Positions 27,717-40,797 of a DNA stretch of 64,000 nt are shown here, piece after piece (the stretch's first letter is position 1; every line of letters begins with the position of its first letter). Location: assembly GCA_027491155.1 (NCBI GenBank), contig JAIXWR010000009.1, forward strand, positions 124,001 through 188,000, in the 5' to 3' direction. Source of the DNA: Verrucomicrobiaceae bacterium. GTDB taxonomy: Bacteria; Verrucomicrobiota; Verrucomicrobiia; Verrucomicrobiales; Akkermansiaceae. The translations under genes and the position numbers were made by a program. The notes under the pieces are model-generated. The model was not told the DNA's origin. It did not search any database and saw only the letters and a program-made list of their open reading frames with translations.

Positions 27717-29300
27717 ATGAAAAAGCCCGCCCTCTCGCGCCTCGCCGCGGCACTTCTCGCCCTCGCGGCCCTGGCGCTGCCGGCGCTTGCCGCCAAGCCG
27801 CCGAACATCGTGATCGTCTACACCGACGACCTCGGGCTGGGCGACCTTTCCTGCTACAACCCGAAGGCCGCCTACCGCACGCCGAACCTCGACCGCATGG
27901 CTGCCGAGGGGATCCGCTTCACCGACGCCCACAGCGCCTCGACCATATGCTCGCCCTCGCGCTACAGCCTCTTTTCCGGCCAGCAGATCTACCGCTCGAC
28001 CGGCGGCGGCGGCGGGGCTTTCGAAGGACCCGGCGGCCCGAGCTACCTCAAGTCCGGCACGCTCACCCTCGGCGACATGCTCCGCAAACAGGGCTACCGC
28101 ACCGGCATCTTCGGCAAGTGGCACGTCGGCCTGACCTGGCTCGACAAGGACGGCAAGCCCCTCCGTGGCGGCTTCGAGACCCCGCGCCTCATCGACTACG
28201 AAAAAAGTACCCCGCTCATCGACGGCCCGAACGCCCGCGGCTTCGACGAATCCTTCATCACCCCGAACTGCCCCTGCACCGATCCGCTCTACGTTTACAT
28301 CGAGAACGGCATGGTCCCCGTCCCCGCGGATCGCAAGCACGACAGCTCGACGCTGCCCAACCCCGGCGGCAAGTGGCGCTGGGACAACGACGAGGGATGG
28401 GTCGCCCCCGGCTACGAGTTCGTGAAGGCCGACCTGCTCTTCTACGACAAGATGAGCTCCTTCATCACCAAGCACCGCACGGAGCATCCGGACCGACCCT
28501 TCCTCGCGGTGCTATCCACCCAGGTCGCCCACGCGCCGGTGCTGCCGGCCCCCGAGTTCGCCGGCGCCACCAAGGCCGGCCCGCGCGGGGACTTCGTGCA
28601 CCAGCTCGATGTGCTCGTCGGCCGCCTGATCGAACTGCTCAAGCAAAGCGGCATCGATCAGGAAACCCTGATCCTCTTCCACGCCGACAACGGCGCCGAG
28701 ACGCGGCATGTCGTGTGGATGCGCGAGGACCACAACCACGACCCCGTCGGCGGCTGGCGGGGCATGAAGCGCGACGGCTGGGAAGGCGGGCACCGCGTTC
28801 CGTTCATCGCCCGCTGGCCCGGGAAGATCCCTCCCGGCCACGTCACCATCCAGATGATGAACACCACCGACATCTTCGCCACCCTCGCCTCCGCCACCGG
28901 CTTCACGCTTCCCGACGAGGCCGCCGTCGATAGCTTCGACCTGCTGCCCGTGCTGCTGGGCAAGCAAGCCGACGACCAACCGGTCCGGCCCCATCTCCTC
29001 ACGCAGAGTTTCCAAGGCCAGTTCCAGATCCGCCAGGGACAATGGAAATACCTCGATCACAAGGGATCGGGCGGAAACAAATACGAAGGGGATCTGGCCC
29101 GCTTCGCCCTTCCGGAAAGCGAACCCGATGCCCCCGGGCAGCTCTACGATCTGGCGAAGGATCCCGGCGAAACCACCAACCTTTACTTCAAAGAAGAGGT
29201 GAAGCGGAAAGAACTCCAGGCGCTGCTCAAGAAGCTGAAGGAAGACGGCCGCAGCGCCCCTCGGGACCGCAAGCCGCTACTCACTTTCACCGGTCCTTGA
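27717..29300 (+). CDS. Secreted sulfatase (arylsulfatase family)
   Basis: This 527-residue protein has a signal peptide (LAAALLALAALALPALAA) and a sulfatase fold. IVIVYTDDLGLGDLSC supplies metal-binding Asp residues. The maturation motif CSPSR at about residues 79-83 has cysteine as the future formylglycine, so an anaerobic or FGE-type maturase is needed elsewhere. GKWHVGL, LILFHADNGAE and a C-terminal RQGQWKYLDHKG are also typical. Such enzymes remove sulfate from polysaccharides; the exact glycan cannot be told. It follows the preceding gene by 42 bp on the same strand. Confidence 0.95.
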   Translation: MKKPALSRLAAALLALAALALPALAAKPPNIVIVYTDDLGLGDLSCYNPKAAYRTPNLDRMAAEGIRFTDAHSASTICSPSRYSLFSGQQIYRSTGGGGGAFEGPGGPSYLKSGTLTLGDMLRKQGYRTGIFGKWHVGLTWLDKDGKPLRGGFETPRLIDYEKSTPLIDGPNARGFDESFITPNCPCTDPLYVYIENGMVPVPADRKHDSSTLPNPGGKWRWDNDEGWVAPGYEFVKADLLFYDKMSSFITKHRTEHPDRPFLAVLSTQVAHAPVLPAPEFAGATKAGPRGDFVHQLDVLVGRLIELLKQSGIDQETLILFHADNGAETRHVVWMREDHNHDPVGGWRGMKRDGWEGGHRVPFIARWPGKIPPGHVTIQMMNTTDIFATLASATGFTLPDEAAVDSFDLLPVLLGKQADDQPVRPHLLTQSFQGQFQIRQGQWKYLDHKGSGGNKYEGDLARFALPESEPDAPGQLYDLAKDPGETTNLYFKEEVKRKELQALLKKLKEDGRSAPRDRKPLLTFTGP

Positions 29301-29386: not shown

Positions 29387-29433
29387 CCAAAGGCAATAGG
29401 TCTCATAGGTCCTATACGACCTATTGCCTTTGG
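29387..29433. repeat. Perfect 16-bp inverted repeat upstream of the four-helix gene
   Basis: CCAAAGGCAATAGGTC (29387-29402) and its exact complement (29418-29433) flank a 15-nt loop that itself contains ATAGGTCCTAT. It lies 32 bp before the start of the four-helix suffix gene and could be a cruciform, operator or transcript hairpin. It is much more AT-rich than its surroundings. Confidence 0.8.
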
Positions 29434-32034: not shown

Positions 32035-33603
32035 TCAGCGCGGCATCCCGTTCTTCTCCATCAACTGCCGGATCTCCTGCTGGCCGAGGGCGCCGGACAC
32101 GATGAACACCTCGTCCAGGCCGCCGCGGAAAAAGCCGCCGTGACGGTTCTCTTTGGACCCGGCCCGGTAGCTGAGGTTCCGGCCCAGCCAGACACCGTGC
32201 GCGGAGTCATCGATCCTCGTGTCCAGTTCGTGAAGCGCGCGCCGCGAGATCGGCTCGAGCCGTCCGTCGAGATAGATGAGCACGTGCTTCCCGATGTCGG
32301 GCCGCGACGCCGGGTAAAGCACCACGGCCACGTGATGCCAGCGCCCGTCGCGCAGGTCGGTCGCCCCGACGATCTGCCCGCCATGGGCCCCGACCCGCAG
32401 GCGACCGAGCGGCCCGTCTTCCTCGAGCGGGTTGATGGAAATCTGCCACGCCCGCCCGAAGTCCGCCGCTCCCACGCTGCCCCACGAGATGATGCCGAAG
32501 CCTTCGCGGACGCTGAAGTCCTCGGGAACCTTCACCCAGAAGCTCACCGTCCGCGGCTCCTGCCCGCCGATGCCCGGGAAGGCGCTTTCCGCGTAGCCGC
32601 CCTTGCCATCGAACGCCGCCGCCGAGCCGAAAACCCCGGCCACCGTTTCAGGCATTCCGCCGTCATCCGCCGCCTTGAAGACCATGTCGTAAGCCCCGGG
32701 TCCGAAGCCGCCGACCTCCGCCCGATCGCGGCCTTCCCGCGCCGACTCCATCGGCCAGCGGATCCAGTCCGGTCGACCGCTCCGCGGCGGCGGCAGTTCG
32801 GTGTAGAACGAGCCGCCGTCGGTCTTGAAGCGCGTGCCATCGCCGCCGTCGAAGCGCAGGGCGTCGTCCTTCTTCAGGAGCACCTTGCGCCCGCCGTCCG
32901 GGATCGCCTCGACCTCGCCCGAGAGCACGTGGGTCTCCACCCGCTCGTCGCCGTCGACCGCCACCCCGAACTCCGTGCCGAGATCGATCACCGAGCCCTT
33001 CGGCGTTTCCACCCGGTAGCCGTGCCCGGCCGGTTCCACCTTCATCATCACCCGCCCGCGGTGGAGCCTCGACTCCATGCCGCTCACGAATTCGAGATCC
33101 GCCGGTCCTTCGACGATCATCCGGCCGCGACCGCCCATCTCCAGTTCCACCAGCCCGCCGTCGAAACGCAGCCGCGCGCCCGAACGAAGGACCGCCCCTT
33201 CCAACAGCGAAGTCCCGCCGGTCCACGACACGGTCTCCAGCCGGCGGACCGTGGCCACCCCGTCGGGCCGGACCATCAGCCAGGAAAGCCCGCCGATCGC
33301 CAGCACCGCCGCGATGGCCGTGATCCGCTTGCGCCACTGCTGCCTTTGGATCCGCCGGTTCACGCCCGCCAGGAAGTCGTCCTGATCCACCCGCCTCACC
33401 GCCTCCATCAGCCGCCCGTGCCGGCGCTCCGCGGAAAACTCGTCTTCCAAAGCCACGCCTAACAGCCCCTCGACCAGCGCGTGCCCGCCGAGCTCCTTCT
33501 TCGCCGCCGGATCCGCCGCAAGCCGCGCCGCGAGCGCCTGCCGCCCAGCCTCGTCGAGTTCCCCGGCCAGCAGCCGCGCGATGTCGTCCGGCTCGCCGCT
33601 CAT
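32035..33603 (-). CDS. FecR-domain protein with C-terminal LamG-like domain
   Basis: This 522-residue membrane protein starts with a short cytoplasmic anti-sigma-like part (LLAGELDEAGRQALAARLAADP), then one transmembrane helix (about 94-112, AAVLAIGGLSWLMV). A periplasmic FecR domain follows (about 140-240; TPKGSVIDLGTEFGVAVDGDE) and a LamG/concanavalin-like jellyroll (about 300-510; AAAFDGKGGYAE, VSFWVKVPE, RDGRWHHVAVVLY, GGLDEVFI). Its ATG at 33603 overlaps the sigma-factor stop by 4 bp. This points to a sigma/regulator pair in which the jellyroll may sense glycans; that role is inference. The layout is frequent in Planctomycetes and Verrucomicrobia. Confidence 0.9.
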   Translation of the reverse strand: MSGEPDDIARLLAGELDEAGRQALAARLAADPAAKKELGGHALVEGLLGVALEDEFSAERRHGRLMEAVRRVDQDDFLAGVNRRIQRQQWRKRITAIAAVLAIGGLSWLMVRPDGVATVRRLETVSWTGGTSLLEGAVLRSGARLRFDGGLVELEMGGRGRMIVEGPADLEFVSGMESRLHRGRVMMKVEPAGHGYRVETPKGSVIDLGTEFGVAVDGDERVETHVLSGEVEAIPDGGRKVLLKKDDALRFDGGDGTRFKTDGGSFYTELPPPRSGRPDWIRWPMESAREGRDRAEVGGFGPGAYDMVFKAADDGGMPETVAGVFGSAAAFDGKGGYAESAFPGIGGQEPRTVSFWVKVPEDFSVREGFGIISWGSVGAADFGRAWQISINPLEEDGPLGRLRVGAHGGQIVGATDLRDGRWHHVAVVLYPASRPDIGKHVLIYLDGRLEPISRRALHELDTRIDDSAHGVWLGRNLSYRAGSKENRHGGFFRGGLDEVFIVSGALGQQEIRQLMEKNGMPR

Positions 33604-34190
33604 GATTCGCTTGCCTCCATTTTCCGCTCCACGCAGTCCGCCAGCAGTTCGCGCAGCCGGTGCAGCTGCATCGTCAGCGCCGAGTATCCCCGGCCGCTCT
33701 CCGCCGCCATCTCCCGCACCGTCTTGCCCGTCACGTAGCGCCGGTCCAGCAGCTCGCGCGAGGGCCCGTCGATCTTTCCAAGGCACTCCCGCAGGGCCTC
33801 CAGCGCGCCGCCTTCGTCCGCGCCGGCCAGGAAGGATTCCGCGCCTTGATCGATCAGCACCTGCAGCTCGTCGTTGCCGCCGATCGCCTGCTCGCGGCGC
33901 TTGCGCAGGAAATTCCGCAAGTGGTTCACGGCGATCCCGCGCAGCCATCCCTCGAAACCCGACTCGCCGTTGAACGTGTGCACCCGGCGGAAGGCCGTGA
34001 CGAACACCTCCTGCGCCAGATCGTCCGCCGCCGCCCAGTCGCGGATGCGGGACCGGAGAAAGCCGCGCACCCAGCCCTCGTGGAGCCGCACCAGATCGCC
34101 GAAGGCATCCATCCAGCCCGGACCGCGCGCCTGCAAGCGGCGAAGCAGGTCGCCGGAAGGATCGCCCGGGGATTCGGAAGGAACAGCCAC
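33600..34190 (-). CDS. ECF-type RNA polymerase sigma factor
   Basis: The region 2 helix HEGWVRGFLRSRIRDWAAADDLAQEVFVTAFRR and region 4 LDRRYVTGKTVREMAAESGRGYSALTMQLHRLRELL are clear. I prefer the GTG at 34190, giving 196 aa, the normal ECF length. A further upstream GTG at 34313 would read through an inverted repeat. The gene overlaps the FecR/LamG gene by ATGA, so the two are coupled and the FecR protein is the likely regulator. The divergent gene at 34355 may be a target; its promoter region is shared. Target promoters cannot be predicted. Confidence 0.9.
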   Translation of the reverse strand: MAVPSESPGDPSGDLLRRLQARGPGWMDAFGDLVRLHEGWVRGFLRSRIRDWAAADDLAQEVFVTAFRRVHTFNGESGFEGWLRGIAVNHLRNFLRKRREQAIGGNDELQVLIDQGAESFLAGADEGGALEALRECLGKIDGPSRELLDRRYVTGKTVREMAAESGRGYSALTMQLHRLRELLADCVERKMEASES

Positions 34191-34340
34191 CGGGAGAAGT
34201 GTTCCGGGCGGGGAGAAGTGCCACAAGTTTTTCCACCGACGGCGAAATCCGTCTTCCCGATGCCGAGGAACCGGGATCGACCTCCGAAAGATTCCGGAAA
34301 ACAAATGTGTCACTTCTCCCCGCCCGGCACACTTCCCGGG
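34191..34340. repeat. Inverted repeat filling the sigma-factor / secreted-protein promoter region
   Basis: Arms 34191-34234 and 34296-34340 are imperfect reverse complements. Each holds two spaced copies of a GAAGTG-type core, and they share the exact 17-mer CCGGGCGGGGAGAAGTG. About 60 bp separate them. The element spans almost the entire gap between the proposed start at 34190 and the ATG at 34355, so both promoters must lie in or next to it. Confidence 0.8.
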
Positions 34341-34354
34341 AAACCCGGTCCTTC

Positions 34355-37300
34355 ATGCTCCGCCTCCTCGCCGCACCTGCCCTCGTCCTGTCGCTTCCCG
34401 CGGCGGAGCTGCTGGTGAACGCGGACTTCGAAACCCCGCCCTTCCCCGCACCCTGGACGTCTTCCGGCGGCACGGTGCAAGTCGCCGGACTGAACGGCAC
34501 CGCCACCGCGGCTCGGCTGCCCTTCAACACCGCCGCCTCGCTTTCGCAGGTCACCGCCACCTCCGCCGCGGACTTCACCTTCGACGTCTGCTTCCAAGTC
34601 CCCGGCATCAACGAGGCCCAGTCGTTCCGCATGACCCTGCTCGCCGGGTCGGCCGATGCCATCGACCTGCGGCTCGCCACCAGCGGCGCGCTGGAACTTG
34701 CCACCGCTCCCTCGATCTATCTGCCGCTCACCGCCATCGCGGACGGCAGCACCACCGCGATCCCGATCAACCAGAGCGTCAAGGTCCGCATCATCGGCCG
34801 CGGCTTCGGCACGCCCGCCGCCCGCTACGACCTGCTGTGGACCGCTCCTTACACCGGCGCCGCCGTGCCGCCGTTCACCCGTGCGGCGAACCATCTGACC
34901 GCATTCACCGGCGACGCCGCGAAAGCCGCCGCGCTCAACGGGGTCCGCTTCCAGCGCAACATCACCGCCGCGAACTCGTTCCTTGTCGACCAACTCTCGC
35001 TGCAGGACAGCGCCGCCGCGGGCATCGCCGCCACCCACCGGATCGTCCTCCCGCCGCCCGACAAGGTGGTCAACATCTCCGGGGTCTATCCGCACCTCGC
35101 GATGACCAACAGCCACCTCGAATGCGGCGTCGGCGCGGTGGTCCCCTGGGCCGGCAGGCTGTGGACCATGACCTACGGCCCCCACCTGCCGAACGGGTCC
35201 ACCGACAAGCTCTACGAGATCGCCCCCGACCTCTCGCGCGTCATCCGCCCGGAATCCGTCGGCGGCACGCCCGCCAACCGCTTCATCCACGCCGCGTCGA
35301 ACCAGCTCAACATCGGTCCGTATTTCATCGACGCCTCCCGCAACGTCCGCGTCCTCCGCCCGGCCGGCGCCACCACCGGCGTGATCCCCGGGCGCCTGAC
35401 CGCCAGCGCCGCGCACCTCGGACCGCTGCCCGCCACCGATCCCGCCTCCACGGTCATCGGCAGCGACCCGGCCCGCATGCTGATCTTCACCATGGAAGAC
35501 GGCGTCTACGACGTGAATCCGGCCGACCTCACCTACATCACCCGCTATCCCGACGTCCAGGGCACCGGCGACCGCTTCCTCTTCGGCTACCACGGCAAGG
35601 GCGCCTACACCGGCCAGGGCCGCTTCGTCGTCGCCAACAACGGCCGCCCGAACAACCAGGGCGTCCCGACCGGCGAGTCCGGCGTGCTCGCCACCTGGGA
35701 CGGCACCACCGTGCAAAGGAACGGCGGCGGCTACCTCGAAACCGGCGGAATCCCCTTCCACCAGTCCAACCCGGCGGCCGACGGCGCCGCACCCGCCGCG
35801 GCCCAGCCCCAGTTCCTCCACGGCTGGGAGCAGGTGAGCAAGACCCAGCACTGCGAGGTCACCGGACCAGGCGGCATCTACGGGAACTCCAGTAACAACG
35901 ACGCCGTCTGGTCCACCGGCTTCGACGCGAAGTCGGTCCTGCTCCACGTGATGGAGAACCGGCAGTGGAACCTCTGGCGGCTGCCGAAGGGCTCCTATTC
36001 CCACGACGGCTCGCACGGCTGGCACACCGAGTGGCCGCGCATCCGCCAGCTCGATCCCGCCGATCCGCAAAGCCCATTCCTGATGCACATGCACGGGCTG
36101 TTCTTCGATTTCCCGAAGACCTTCTCCGCCGCCAATTTCGCCGGACTCCAGCCGGTCTCGAGCTACTACAAGATGCCCACCGACTACTGCACCTTCGAAG
36201 GCCGCATCGTCATGGGCAAGAACGACGCCTCGCAGTTCAGCAACGCCTTCGCCCTGAAGAACCAGTCGAACCTCTGGTTCGGCACGATGGAAGACATCGC
36301 GGACTGGGGCCCGCCGTCCGGCCATGGAGCGGTCTGGATGAACGAAGCCGTCGCCGCGGACCAGGTCTCCGATCCTTTCCTCATCGGCGGCTTCCCGCAG
36401 CGCACGCTCCACCTCCGGAATCCCGGCGTCACCCCCGTTTCGATCGAAGTCCAGGTTTCCCAAGGCACCCACGCGTGGACCGCGGTCCGCAGCGTGGAAG
36501 TGCCGGCCGGCGGCTACGTCGCCGAGATCCTCAACGACCTCGCCGCGCCCTGGGTTCGGCTGAAAGCCGCCGCCGCCGGCAGCGACCTCACCGCCTTCTT
36601 CCACCTGGCCTCTCCCTACCCGCACGGCACCCCGGCCTCGGCGCACACCGCGGAGTTCGCCGCCCTCGCGGACATCCGCGACACCCGGTCGATGTCCGAC
36701 GGCATCATCCGCGTGATGAACGACGCCAGCCTGCCGCTCGAGTTCGCCTCCAGCCGCACCGCGGCCGACGGCTCCGCCGCGCTCCACCGCTACCACCGGA
36801 TCGGCGGCCCGATGGAACTCGCCGACACGGCCAATCCCGCCGCGGAAAGCGCGCTGCGGACCTCCGCCGCGTTGGTCAAGGAGTTCGGCTCCGACGCCGC
36901 CTCCGCCTGGCTCGAGGAAAGCGGCACGCGCTTCCGCCTGCCGAAGCTCGACCCTCTCTACGACGCTCCTTTCGCCGCCGGTTGGGCGCGCGGCATCCGC
37001 GAAACCGTGACCGAACGCCAGATGCTCAATTGCCACGGCACCTTCTACGAGGTTCCTCGTAGCAACTCCGGCGGCGCCCGCAAGATGCGCGCCCTGGCCA
37101 CCCACGGCAAACGCATCACCGACTTCGCCTCCTGGCGCGGCCTGCTGGTGCTCACCGGCGTGCTCGACGACGCGCCCGCCTCCGACAAGCTCGTCCGCAA
37201 TGCCGATGGAAGCGCCGCCCTCTGGCTCGGCGAGATCGACGACCTCTGGCGCATGGGCGAACCCCGCGGCAAAGGCGGCCCCTGGCTGGACACCGGGATC

Positions 37301-37960
37301 ACCGCCGGCACGCTTTCGGACCCCTACCTGATGTACGGCTACGATCGCAAGGAGCTCCGCCTGTCCTCGACCGCCGCCGCCACCCTCACCGTCGAAGTCG
37401 ACTTCCTCGGCGACAACACGTGGTCGGTTTACCGCGACTTCCCGCTGGCCGCCGGGGAAAGCCTCACCCACCTGTTCCCGGCCGGTTTCCACGCCCACTG
37501 GGTCCGGCTGAAATCGAGCGCCGCCACCACCGCCACCGCGCAGTTCACCTACGGCCCGGCCGATGCCCGCGACGCGTTCCTCGACTGGGCTCGCGACCGG
37601 GGGCTGCCCACCGCTTCAGGCCGCGCCGCCTTGACCGCGGCCGACTCCGATGGCGACGGGCTGGACGAGCTCGGCGAGTTCGTCTTCGGCACCGATCCCC
37701 GTGCCGCGGATGCCAATCCCCTCCGCGTTGCCGACGGCGAAGCCGGGATCGTCGTCCGCGACCTGCAGCCCGCCGACCGGATCACCTGCGTCTTCGAATC
37801 GTCCGAAACGCTCGCCGGCACCTGGACGCCGCGGCCGGACCTCGAATCGGAAGCCGTGGATCAAAGCGGCGTGCCCGCGGGCTTCCGCCGGGTCCGTTAC
37901 GCGCTCGAACCCGGCCACCCGCGCTTCTTCATCCGAGCCCGCGCCATTCTTTCTCCCTGA
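34355..37960 (+). CDS. Large secreted protein, duplicated-module family, with CBM-like and TSP3-like ends
   Basis: The ATG at 34355 gives 1201 aa with a short signal peptide (LLAAPALVLSLPAAE). Residues of about 20-230 form a beta-rich N-terminal domain starting ELLVNADFETPPFPAPW, like carbohydrate-binding modules. The core (about 240-1085) is shared with the next gene: ISGVYPHLAM, ECGVGAVVPWAGRLWTMTYG, IRPESVGGTPANRF and EVTGPGGIYG. It contains two similar half-modules, each with SDPF/YL...G...LHL/RLS. The C-terminus has a calcium-type repeat (DSDGDGLDELGEFVFGTDP) and ends RFFIRARAILSP. I do not recognise the core family; it may be a beta-propeller that binds or processes glycans. It diverges from the ECF sigma factor. 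Confidence 0.85.
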   Translation: MLRLLAAPALVLSLPAAELLVNADFETPPFPAPWTSSGGTVQVAGLNGTATAARLPFNTAASLSQVTATSAADFTFDVCFQVPGINEAQSFRMTLLAGSADAIDLRLATSGALELATAPSIYLPLTAIADGSTTAIPINQSVKVRIIGRGFGTPAARYDLLWTAPYTGAAVPPFTRAANHLTAFTGDAAKAAALNGVRFQRNITAANSFLVDQLSLQDSAAAGIAATHRIVLPPPDKVVNISGVYPHLAMTNSHLECGVGAVVPWAGRLWTMTYGPHLPNGSTDKLYEIAPDLSRVIRPESVGGTPANRFIHAASNQLNIGPYFIDASRNVRVLRPAGATTGVIPGRLTASAAHLGPLPATDPASTVIGSDPARMLIFTMEDGVYDVNPADLTYITRYPDVQGTGDRFLFGYHGKGAYTGQGRFVVANNGRPNNQGVPTGESGVLATWDGTTVQRNGGGYLETGGIPFHQSNPAADGAAPAAAQPQFLHGWEQVSKTQHCEVTGPGGIYGNSSNNDAVWSTGFDAKSVLLHVMENRQWNLWRLPKGSYSHDGSHGWHTEWPRIRQLDPADPQSPFLMHMHGLFFDFPKTFSAANFAGLQPVSSYYKMPTDYCTFEGRIVMGKNDASQFSNAFALKNQSNLWFGTMEDIADWGPPSGHGAVWMNEAVAADQVSDPFLIGGFPQRTLHLRNPGVTPVSIEVQVSQGTHAWTAVRSVEVPAGGYVAEILNDLAAPWVRLKAAAAGSDLTAFFHLASPYPHGTPASAHTAEFAALADIRDTRSMSDGIIRVMNDASLPLEFASSRTAADGSAALHRYHRIGGPMELADTANPAAESALRTSAALVKEFGSDAASAWLEESGTRFRLPKLDPLYDAPFAAGWARGIRETVTERQMLNCHGTFYEVPRSNSGGARKMRALATHGKRITDFASWRGLLVLTGVLDDAPASDKLVRNADGSAALWLGEIDDLWRMGEPRGKGGPWLDTGITAGTLSDPYLMYGYDRKELRLSSTAAATLTVEVDFLGDNTWSVYRDFPLAAGESLTHLFPAGFHAHWVRLKSSAATTATAQFTYGPADARDAFLDWARDRGLPTASGRAALTAADSDGDGLDELGEFVFGTDPRAADANPLRVADGEAGIVVRDLQPADRITCVFESSETLAGTWTPRPDLESEAVDQSGVPAGFRRVRYALEPGHPRFFIRARAILSP

Positions 37961-37992: not shown

Positions 37993-40428
37993 ATGAACCC
38001 GCGCCTCTTCGCCGCCCTGCTTCTCACCAGCCCGCTTTCCGCCGAGCCCCGCCAGATCTCCGGCATCTATCCGCACCTCGCGATGTTCAATGACGAGGGC
38101 GAATGCGGCACCGGTGCCGTGGTCCCCTGGGCCGACCGCCTGTGGATCGTCACCTACGCACCCCACCAGCCGAAGGGCTCCTCCGACAAGCTCTACGAAA
38201 TCACCCCGGACCTCCGGCAGATCATCCGCCCGGAATCCATCGGCGGCACCCCGGCCAACCGGTTGATCCACGACGAATCGCAGCAGCTCTTCATCGGACC
38301 TCACGCCATCGCCGCAGACGGCACCGTCCGCACCATCCCCTACGCCAGCATGCCCGGCCGCCCGACCGGCAATGCGCGCCACCTTTCCGACCCCGCCGGA
38401 AAGATCTACTACGCCACGATGGAGGAAGGCGTCTACGAGGTCGACGTCAAGACGCTGCAGGTGACCGAACTCTTCGCCGACAACCAGGGACAGATCGGCC
38501 ACTACGAGGACAACGCCAAGGGCCGCCGCCTCGCCGGACTTCCCGGCTACCACGGCAAGGGCCTCTACTCCGGCCAGGGCCGCCTGATCTATGCCAACAA
38601 CGGCGAAGCCGGCGGCGCCGCGAAAACCAACCCCGCCACGCCTTCGGGCGTCCTCGGTTCGTGGGATGGAAAATCGGACAAGTTCGAGGTGGTCCGCCGC
38701 AACCAGTTCACCGAAGTCACCGGACCCGGCGGCATCCACGGCAGCAAGAACCCGGCCACCGACCCCGTCTGGTCGATGGGCTGGGACCACCGTTCCCTCA
38801 TCCTGATGCTGCTCGACGGCGGCAAGTGGCACGCCTACCGCCTGCCGAAGGGCTCCCACTCCTACGACGGCGCCCACGGCTGGAACACCGAGTGGCCGCG
38901 CATCCGCGAGATCGGCGAGGGCGACACGCTGCTCGCCACCATGCACGGCACTTTCTGGAAATTTCCGAAGACCTTCTCCGCGAAGAACAGCGCCGGCATC
39001 GCCCCGCGCTCGAATTACCTCAAGGTCATCGGCGACTTCGCCCGCTGGAACGACCGTGTGGTCTTCGGCTGCGACGACACCGCCAAGTCCGAGTTCCTCA
39101 ACAAGCGCAAGGCCAAGGGCGAGATCGCCGCGCCCCGCTCGCAGTCGAACCTCTGGTTCGTCGAGCCCGCGACCATCGACAAGCTCGGCCCGGCCATCGG
39201 CCGCGGCGCGGTCTGGCTCGGCGATGCCGTGAAAGCCGGCGCCCCCTCCGACCCCTTCCTCTTCTCCGGCTACACCCGCCGCGGCGTCCACCTCCACCAT
39301 GAGGGTTCCGCCCCGCTGACCTTCTCCTTCGAGATCGACCGCGAAGGAAACGGCACCTGGACCCCGCTCGCCAAGACCACCGTGCCCGCCGGCGAGCACC
39401 GCTGGTTCGCCTTCACCCCGGATCAGGCCGGTGCCTGGATCCGCATCACCCCGGACGCGGATGCCGCCAAGGTCACCGCGTTCTTCCAGTGCTCGAACTC
39501 CGACGAACGCAGTACTTCCCCCGCGGGAATCTTCAACGGCCTCGCCAAGGCAGGCGACACCCGGGTCAGCGGCGGGCTCATCCGCGCCCGCGACGGCAAG
39601 AGCGGCAATCTCGCCTTCGCCGCCATCGATGCCGACGGCAAGGACACCGGCTGCTACGAACTCGACGGCGATCTTAACCTCAAGCCGACCGCCGAAAGCG
39701 CGCTTCACCAGCACACGCTCCAGAACACGAAGATCCCGGTCGGCATCATCCAAACCGACGCCGCTTCGGTGCTCTTCATCGACGACGACGGCAAGCGCTG
39801 GCGTCTGCCGAAGGGCGACCCCGCCCTCGACAAGACCGGGGCCCTCGGCGAAAGCCGCGCCGCCCGCGAAGTCGCCACCGAGCGCGACCTCTTCCACGCC
39901 CACGGCACCTTCTACGAACTTCCCGCGAACAACGCCGGCGGCTTCGCCAAGGTCCGCCCCGTCACCACCCACAACTTCCGCATCCACGACTACTGCTCCT
40001 TCCGCGGCCTCTTCCTGATGACCGGCATCTCCGCCGACGCCCCGGCGGACAATCCCCACCTGATCCGCTCTTCCGACGGCAAGGCCGTACTCTGGGCCGG
40101 CGCTATCGACGACATCTGGTCCATGGGCAAGCCCCGCGGCCAGGGCGGCCCGTGGAAGGACAGCGCGGTGAAGGCCGGCGAGGTCTCCGATCCCTACCTG
40201 ATGACTGCCTACGACAAGAAGTCGCTCGTCCTCACCGCCGACAAGGACGCGACCCTCACCGCGGAGATCGACCTCACCGGCGACGGCGATTGGGTCACCT
40301 ACCGGAGCTTCCCCGTCAAAGCCGGCACGCCGGTGAACCACGATTTCCCCGACGGCTTCTCCGCCTACTGGATCCGCTTCAAGTCCGGCCACGACGCCAC
40401 GGTCAGCGCCCAGCTCGACTACCGCTGA
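37993..40428 (+). CDS. Large secreted protein, paralogue of the preceding gene
   Basis: This 811-residue protein starts with a signal peptide (LFAALLLTSPLSAEP) 32 bp after the previous stop, so the two form a transcription unit. It covers only the shared core: ISGIYPHLAMFN, ECGTGAVVPWADRLWIVTYAPH, YEITPDLRQIIRPESIGGTPANRL, ATMEEGVYEVD, GYHGKGLYSGQGR, EVTGPGGIHGSKN, LPKGSHSYDGAHGW. It lacks the N-terminal CBM-like and C-terminal TSP3-like parts of its neighbour. The second half repeats the module (FYELPANNAGG, GAIDDIWSMGKPRGQGGPW, SDPYLMTAYDKK). No catalytic signature is recognised; periplasmic or extracellular location is likely. Confidence 0.85.
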   Translation: MNPRLFAALLLTSPLSAEPRQISGIYPHLAMFNDEGECGTGAVVPWADRLWIVTYAPHQPKGSSDKLYEITPDLRQIIRPESIGGTPANRLIHDESQQLFIGPHAIAADGTVRTIPYASMPGRPTGNARHLSDPAGKIYYATMEEGVYEVDVKTLQVTELFADNQGQIGHYEDNAKGRRLAGLPGYHGKGLYSGQGRLIYANNGEAGGAAKTNPATPSGVLGSWDGKSDKFEVVRRNQFTEVTGPGGIHGSKNPATDPVWSMGWDHRSLILMLLDGGKWHAYRLPKGSHSYDGAHGWNTEWPRIREIGEGDTLLATMHGTFWKFPKTFSAKNSAGIAPRSNYLKVIGDFARWNDRVVFGCDDTAKSEFLNKRKAKGEIAAPRSQSNLWFVEPATIDKLGPAIGRGAVWLGDAVKAGAPSDPFLFSGYTRRGVHLHHEGSAPLTFSFEIDREGNGTWTPLAKTTVPAGEHRWFAFTPDQAGAWIRITPDADAAKVTAFFQCSNSDERSTSPAGIFNGLAKAGDTRVSGGLIRARDGKSGNLAFAAIDADGKDTGCYELDGDLNLKPTAESALHQHTLQNTKIPVGIIQTDAASVLFIDDDGKRWRLPKGDPALDKTGALGESRAAREVATERDLFHAHGTFYELPANNAGGFAKVRPVTTHNFRIHDYCSFRGLFLMTGISADAPADNPHLIRSSDGKAVLWAGAIDDIWSMGKPRGQGGPWKDSAVKAGEVSDPYLMTAYDKKSLVLTADKDATLTAEIDLTGDGDWVTYRSFPVKAGTPVNHDFPDGFSAYWIRFKSGHDATVSAQLDYR

Positions 40429-40564: not shown

Positions 40565-40797
40565 GATGTCCCAACGGGACTCCAATCACGAAGCCCGGGG
40601 TTGCGAGGGACGAGCTACCCCGGGTCATTTAGGCAGAGCAAATCCTACCTCGAAGAGGTTGTGGACGATGGGGGCCCGCAACTCCCGGAGAACCGCTCTT
40701 GCTCAACACCTTCGGCGTAGGAACACCGACTGCGGCTACCTGGGGTAGCTCGTTCCTCGCAACCCCGGGCTTTGAAACGCAGTCCCCTTGGGACAAC
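40565..40797. repeat. Large inverted-repeat element (MITE/REPIN-like)
   Basis: Arms 40565-40624 and 40738-40797 are near-complementary over about 58 bp, sharing the core GCCCGGGGTTGCGAGG and GAGCTACCCC. Inner segments also pair (TCCTACCTCGAAGAGGTTG near 40643 with CAACACCTTCGGCGTAGGA near 40703). Almost the whole 230 bp could therefore fold as one long hairpin. It fills the gap between two convergent genes, and no gene is seen in it. Confidence 0.85.

Follow-up and report, generated by a model that had tools for sequence, protein, structure and literature searches.

On the evidence of the sequence, an inverted repeat in the 64,000-nucleotide stretch of DNA that we analyzed (the window) is very probably the divergent promoter pair of a TIGR02989-type ECF sigma factor under the control of a FecR-LamG anti-sigma protein. 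Each arm would supply a promoter of the same type, made up of TGTGNNA as the −35 block, ACAC(T) as the −10 block, and a spacer of 16 nt between them, with the two promoters standing back to back. The ECF sigma factor encoded at 33600–34190 is predicted to read both of them and, as we infer, to bind both sites. Its release by the FecR-LamG anti-sigma partner, presumably upon binding of an extracellular glycan or surface ligand, would lead to transcription of the sigma factor's own operon, giving positive autoregulation, and to transcription of a secreted-protein operon, tgt-par, in the opposite direction.

The sigma factor gene (33600–34190, minus strand) begins with a GTG (34190) that lies 35 nt from the initial T of TGTGGCA. 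Its product contains a Sigma70_r2 domain and scores 136.8 bits against TIGR02989, the Rhodopirellula/Verrucomicrobium ECF family, which is above the curated cut-off of 124.55 and places it in that family. The candidate anti-sigma gene (32035–33603, minus strand) has an ATG that overlaps the sigma stop codon, as befits an anti-sigma-type neighbor, and its product has Pfam matches to FecR (2.4e-07) and to the lectin-like Laminin_G_3 (5.9e-10). On the other side of the repeat, tgt (34355–37960, plus strand) encodes a protein of 1201 residues whose N terminus looks, by eye, like a signal peptide and whose ortholog in genome G008 is 75% identical. It is followed after 32 nt by par (37993–40428, plus strand), which encodes a secreted-looking protein of 811 residues, a shorter relative of Tgt. 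Neither protein matched a Pfam family at E 0.001, and no solved structure matched Par by sequence at E 10. In a fold comparison of a predicted model of Par (mean pLDDT 89.4), the N-terminal residues 18–400 matched β-propellers, with a best Z of 19.3.

A repeat search delimited two arms of 56 nt each (34177–34232 and 34299–34354), 75% complementary and 66 nt apart, with an exact core of 17 nt, CCGGGCGGGGAGAAGTG (34204–34220 on the plus strand and 34311–34327 on the minus strand). In 60 first-order Markov shuffles of the window, with arms up to 250 nt apart, the longest perfect repeats were 11–15 nt. The initial annotation had described an inverted repeat spanning the intergenic promoter region, and the repeat is real, its exact core exceeding the shuffle maximum; the flanking start codons (GTG at 34190 on the minus strand and ATG at 34355 on the plus strand) are also where that annotation had placed them. 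Three perfect inverted repeats in the window are longer than 15 nt, namely the present one (17 nt, 34204–34327), one of 18 nt (40591–40772), and one of 16 nt (29387–29433). The 16-nt repeat, AAAGGCAATAGGTC...GACCTATTGCCTTT, is located at the beginning of a gene whose match to 23S_rRNA_IVP is weak and below the cut-off. The 18-nt repeat forms the perfect ends of a hairpin, about 180 nt long, that is situated between par and a DUF58 gene. This hairpin is a dispersed element with 10 matches in the genome at up to three mismatches, two of them its own arms, against 0 for the control; some of its copies show paired changes in the stem, and no Rfam family was found for it at the gathering score.

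The sigma-side promoter (34197–34225, minus strand) consists of TGTGGCA (34225–34219), the 16-nt spacer CTTCTCCCCGCCCGGA, and ACACTT (34202–34197), and the divergent-gene promoter (34306–34334, plus strand) of TGTGTCA (34306–34312), the 16-nt spacer CTTCTCCCCGCCCGGC, and ACACTT (34329–34334). Directly upstream of each −35 block lies an A-rich tract, GGTGGAAAAACT on the sigma side (34226–34237, minus strand) and CCGGAAAACAAA on the divergent side (34294–34305, plus strand), and over 32 sites the A+T content of the 10 nt preceding the −35 block is 67%, versus 37% for the spacer. These tracts may act as UP-like elements. The site is asymmetric: one side reads TGTG(T/G)(T/C)A with the A+T-rich tract ahead of it, and the −10 side reads GNNACACT, unlike the TGTGNNA side, mostly with a G three bases before ACAC(T). 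This asymmetry, together with the placement of the A+T tract on the −35 side, gives the site the shape of a promoter and not that of a dimer operator. The initial annotation had looked for the functional core in the symmetric GAAGTG sequences and the 17-mer, but both fall mainly in the nonconserved promoter spacer, and it is the TGTGNNA and ACAC blocks flanking the spacer that are conserved. Neither sigma-70-like promoters nor terminators were found at 33500–35000.

The upstream regions of 16 sigma genes, those of the window and 15 relatives, have the blocks TGTGNNA and ACA(C) in common, and not the 17-mer. The blocks are 16 nt apart in these first 16 loci except in G024, where they are 15 nt apart, and they are found at the equivalent place in relatives that have no inverted repeat. 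Since this two-block pattern had first been spotted by eye in those loci, it was tested elsewhere, on a held-out set of 27 sigma-upstream regions (335 nt each, paralogs among them) that came from further genomes of the family; L186, L187, and L188 were left out because their contigs were too short for a sigma gene. Matches to the FecR protein at E 1e-60 exist in 39 of 260 genomes of the family, and a sigma relative lies beside the FecR match in all 27 held-out stretches long enough for one. The relaxed pattern [CT]GTGNNA-N16-ACA occurred before 14 of the 27 held-out sigma relatives, and the same blocks at spacings of 8–15 and 17–25 gave 0–2 matches in the 27 regions (two at N15). In the 335-nt search, the positions of all 14 matches relative to aligned residue 1 fell between −43 and −6. 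With a weight matrix built from 15 sigma-upstream sites of the first locus set, 15 of the 27 held-out regions scored p < 0.01 against shuffles on their sense strand. The fairly close relatives L178 and L181 are among both the 13 regions without the relaxed pattern and the 12 without such a matrix score, and L161 and L182 carry near-forms of the relaxed pattern. The site is identical in G246, G250, and G260, and the genomes are related, so the counts are not independent. The conservation of the site, its spacing, its orientation, and its position are established by these comparisons. In the more distant sigma relatives L167 and L171 (G167, G154), the usual place is occupied by TGTGACA-N15-ACA, which is one base shorter.

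In the genome of the window, the strict pattern TGTGKYA-N16-ACACT matched twice, at the two arms, against 0 for the control. A matrix trained without the window gave the arms the two highest scores among 127,906 window positions, 25.7 on the sigma side and 21.6 on the divergent side, the next best being 5.2. This genome contains 32 matches to one sigma family; among the 30 that were examined, the site was found only at the window's own sigma gene and at 0 of 29 others. Across 57 genomes, the strict pattern gave 23 matches. Genomes with the sigma/FecR pair account for 11 of them, 10 at the sigma locus or par and one exception, G004:C13, with a matrix score of 1.8, and the 12 in the remaining genomes did not rise above the reversed-pattern control (20, counted by hand). 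The relaxed form TGTGNNA-N16-ACAY had nine matches in the genome of the window, two of which are the arms; these have matrix scores of 24.4 and 29.3, versus −9.0 to 6.7 for the other seven. A wider regulon in this genome was considered and rejected. The site at C34:141990 (score 6.1), before a gene that by eye is aspartase/fumarase-like, is probably a chance match.

The same matrix, with its sigma-upstream training only, was applied upstream of par, one ortholog being counted per genome. Among the 31 genomes that have the sigma/anti-sigma pair, 18 carry a par site (9 of the 14 first-set genomes and 9 of the 17 held-out ones), versus 0 of the 14 genomes that lack the pair, the totals of 31 and 14 genomes having been tallied by hand. 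Sites were counted when no shuffle reached their score; G012 was scored without shuffles, and its par site scores 22.1, with the next best on that strand at −4.1. The Fisher p value of the association is 0.00016, or 0.0025 with G009 counted as site-bearing (a genome without the pair, whose par site was reached by 1 of 100 shuffles), and both values are optimistic owing to the relatedness of the genomes. Dropped from the count were par copies of less than 50% identity in pair-bearing genomes (G014, G025, G143, and G237, together with paralogs in G133, G142, G154, G163, G167, G179, and G205) and the second par copies L218 and L219, which had no site at 0/100. Among the 14 pair-less genomes, the par of G042 is only 45% identical, and G037 and G051 have weak FecR matches (39–45%). 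We regard the target association as established. Par and the sigma gene are on separate contigs in G003, G012, G015, G171, G245, G238, and G163, so that the site they share cannot be put down to immediate adjacency. The par orthologs without a site number 13 of the 31 in pair-bearing genomes, including that of the window, which has no site of its own upstream and follows tgt by the 32 nt given above; in G154, G167, G194, and G029, a par without its own site follows FecR on the same strand. Orthologs of tgt outside the locus (G004:C4, G012:C135, G014, and G017:C250) have no site directly upstream, so the conserved target is par rather than tgt, and the par family is the most frequent carrier of the promoter in relatives.

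The genes beyond the 15 paired divergent sites were read, and Pfam was run on 10 of the 15 proteins. These partners are of exported or surface type and comprise two sulfatases (L077 and L078), four PEP-CTERM matches at E 0.001 (L088, L161, L184, and L071, the last below the curated cut-off), an FAD oxidoreductase (L162), and propellers; in L072 and L073 the partner is par. Most of the remaining ones are secreted-looking with no clear family, and in L180 no convincing gene was found downstream of the divergent site. The prediction that a regulatory site would be restricted to positions upstream of secreted-protein genes was thus borne out in the relatives, for par and for the divergent partners. 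A common bipartite motif with a spacing of about 16 nt is found before both the sigma gene and its targets, as in an autoregulated ECF promoter. The sulfatase-facing sites in L077 and L078 have AGTGCTA in place of TGTGNNA, a variant common to those two genomes. In the window, a sulfatase gene lies at 27717–29300, about 3 kb from the FecR gene, and a sulfatase is the divergent site-bearing partner in G002 and G013.

In the window and in G006, G008, G007, G004, G003, and G012, the sigma start codon is 35–36 nt from the first TGTG base; the codon is GTG, or ATG in G003. By promoter geometry, transcription is expected to start about 35–36 nt from where the −35 block begins. The sigma start codon therefore lies about where transcription should begin, and the sigma transcript, judged from sequence features, probably starts about at its own start codon and would be leaderless, with translation, we infer, starting there. 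The first in-frame start was at 33–46 nt from the site in 33 of 38 site-bearing loci, the distance for L179 and L185 being that to the better site. L071 has a TTG at 27 nt and a GTG at 36 nt, and in L165, L170, L172, and L174 the first in-frame start is at 52–70 nt. Five of 43 loci gave no site in this start-distance search, which was confined to the 60 nt upstream of aligned residue 1, so that the 335-nt search is the fairer test. Listings of the literature on leaderless mRNA with ECF sigma factors or Verrucomicrobia showed nothing on this sigma clade.

The arms might instead be operators of a dimeric regulator other than the sigma factor, controlling both genes. The sites are conserved upstream of both genes, and the TGT...ACA within each is loosely inverted; however, the two sides of the site differ as described, the A+T tract lies on the −35 side, and the orientation is always gene-ward, with all 14 held-out matches in the same narrow interval before aligned residue 1. 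Moreover, the TGTG-to-TGTG distance in the 16 divergent pairs compared (the window and 15 relatives) varies between 13 and 187 nt; the two sites thus do not form a fixed complex. No separate promoter was seen, the number of sigma-70-like sites at 33500–35000 being 0. We consider a dimer operator improbable. The alternative put forward in the initial annotation that the ECF sigma factor binds both arms and acts on both genes is supported. That annotation had also allowed for a mobile inverted repeat, and a REP/REPIN or MITE inserted between the genes would account for promoters brought in with arms that are nearly identical (15 of 16 spacer positions) only in this genome. A REP or REPIN would have many scattered copies, but a search of the 5.73-Mb genome found two exact copies of the 17-mer, both at 34204–34327; with no exact copies beyond the arms, we rejected this candidate. 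Eight other matches carry two mismatches each (reversed-pattern control, 3). Relatives without the repeat keep the promoter blocks in the same position, and a true dispersed hairpin in the same window, that at 40591–40772, has 10 genome matches. A mobile origin is accordingly very improbable, and hardly any likelihood attaches to a DNA cruciform or RNA hairpin structure as what matters. The perfect 17-nt arms would suit such a structure, but each predicted transcript starts past the arm that drives it, and an RNA from either promoter would therefore not hold both arms, and the similarity of the arms is not conserved in relatives.

Within the promoter reading, the near-identity of the two spacers is peculiar to this genome, and promoter function neither needs nor explains it. 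The arms agree at 15 of 16 spacer positions and at 13 of 25 downstream positions, versus 2–8 of 16 and 3–10 of 25 in 15 other divergent pairs; the spacer agreement in the nearest relative, G006, is only 7 of 16. The likeliest cause is a recent inverted duplication or gene conversion. That such an event, or a common origin of the arms, explains the extra identity stands about an even chance and is compatible with the promoter reading; against it, convergence in the G+C-rich spacer may have had the same effect, and the nearest comparison is G006, not a close strain.

Divergent autoregulated ECF promoters are a known kind of arrangement, and what is new is likely to be the sequence of the promoters, the probable lack of a leader in the sigma mRNA, and the secreted-protein regulon. 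Both this sequence and the family of secreted proteins seem to have received little study. No paper mentioning TIGR02989 was found, and listings of papers on verrucomicrobial and planctomycetal ECF sigma factors showed no report of this promoter, although the ECF group classification may already list it. To our knowledge, ECF sigma factors are numerous in this bacterial group, and their promoters and signals are largely unassigned. Somewhat tentatively, and as a proposal a little short of even likelihood, we suggest that TGTGNNA and GNNACACT with a spacer of 16 define an undescribed ECF promoter class of the family's FecR-LamG sigma clade, with a sigma mRNA that starts at its start codon or no more than a few nt from it and a small circuit that senses extracellular glycans and turns on a new family of secreted propellers as well as sulfatases and PEP-CTERM proteins. 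Through this analysis, one sigma clade acquires a promoter sequence, a probable regulon, and a candidate sensor, each genome offers one testable prediction, and an uncharacterized secreted propeller family is linked to sulfatases and PEP-CTERM proteins.

Among known systems, SigI-RsgI of Clostridium thermocellum reportedly combines a carbohydrate-binding anti-sigma protein with a sigma factor for secreted proteins and would be a functional parallel in outline, as a sensor/secreted-protein switch; its sigma and anti-sigma families are said to be unrelated to those described here. Unlike classical FecI-FecR systems, the present locus has a FecR protein with a lectin-like domain, and the adjacent genes examined showed no TonB receptor. 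It resembles FecI-FecR signaling in that the ECF sigma gene adjoins a FecR-domain gene, and ECF sigma factors with FecR-like partners are on record (PMC12155086). Autoregulation is predicted here, whereas classical FecI-type systems are exceptions to autoregulation (PMC8103513). The usual ECF consensus, AAC for the −35 element and CGT for the −10 element (PMC8103513), is not seen in the present TGTGNNA/ACAC sites. ECF41 promoters (PMC3426412) have a −35 element TGTCACA and a −10 element CGTC with a spacer of 16 ± 1, so the blocks here are of different sequence, and the regulatory domain that is fused to the ECF41 sigma factor is replaced here by a separate FecR-LamG protein acting beside a TIGR02989 sigma factor. 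The two systems are alike in that the sigma gene and its target are each preceded by a bipartite promoter whose spacer is 16 ± 1 and whose −35 element begins with TGT, and ECF41, too, often has a single target locus (PMC3426412).
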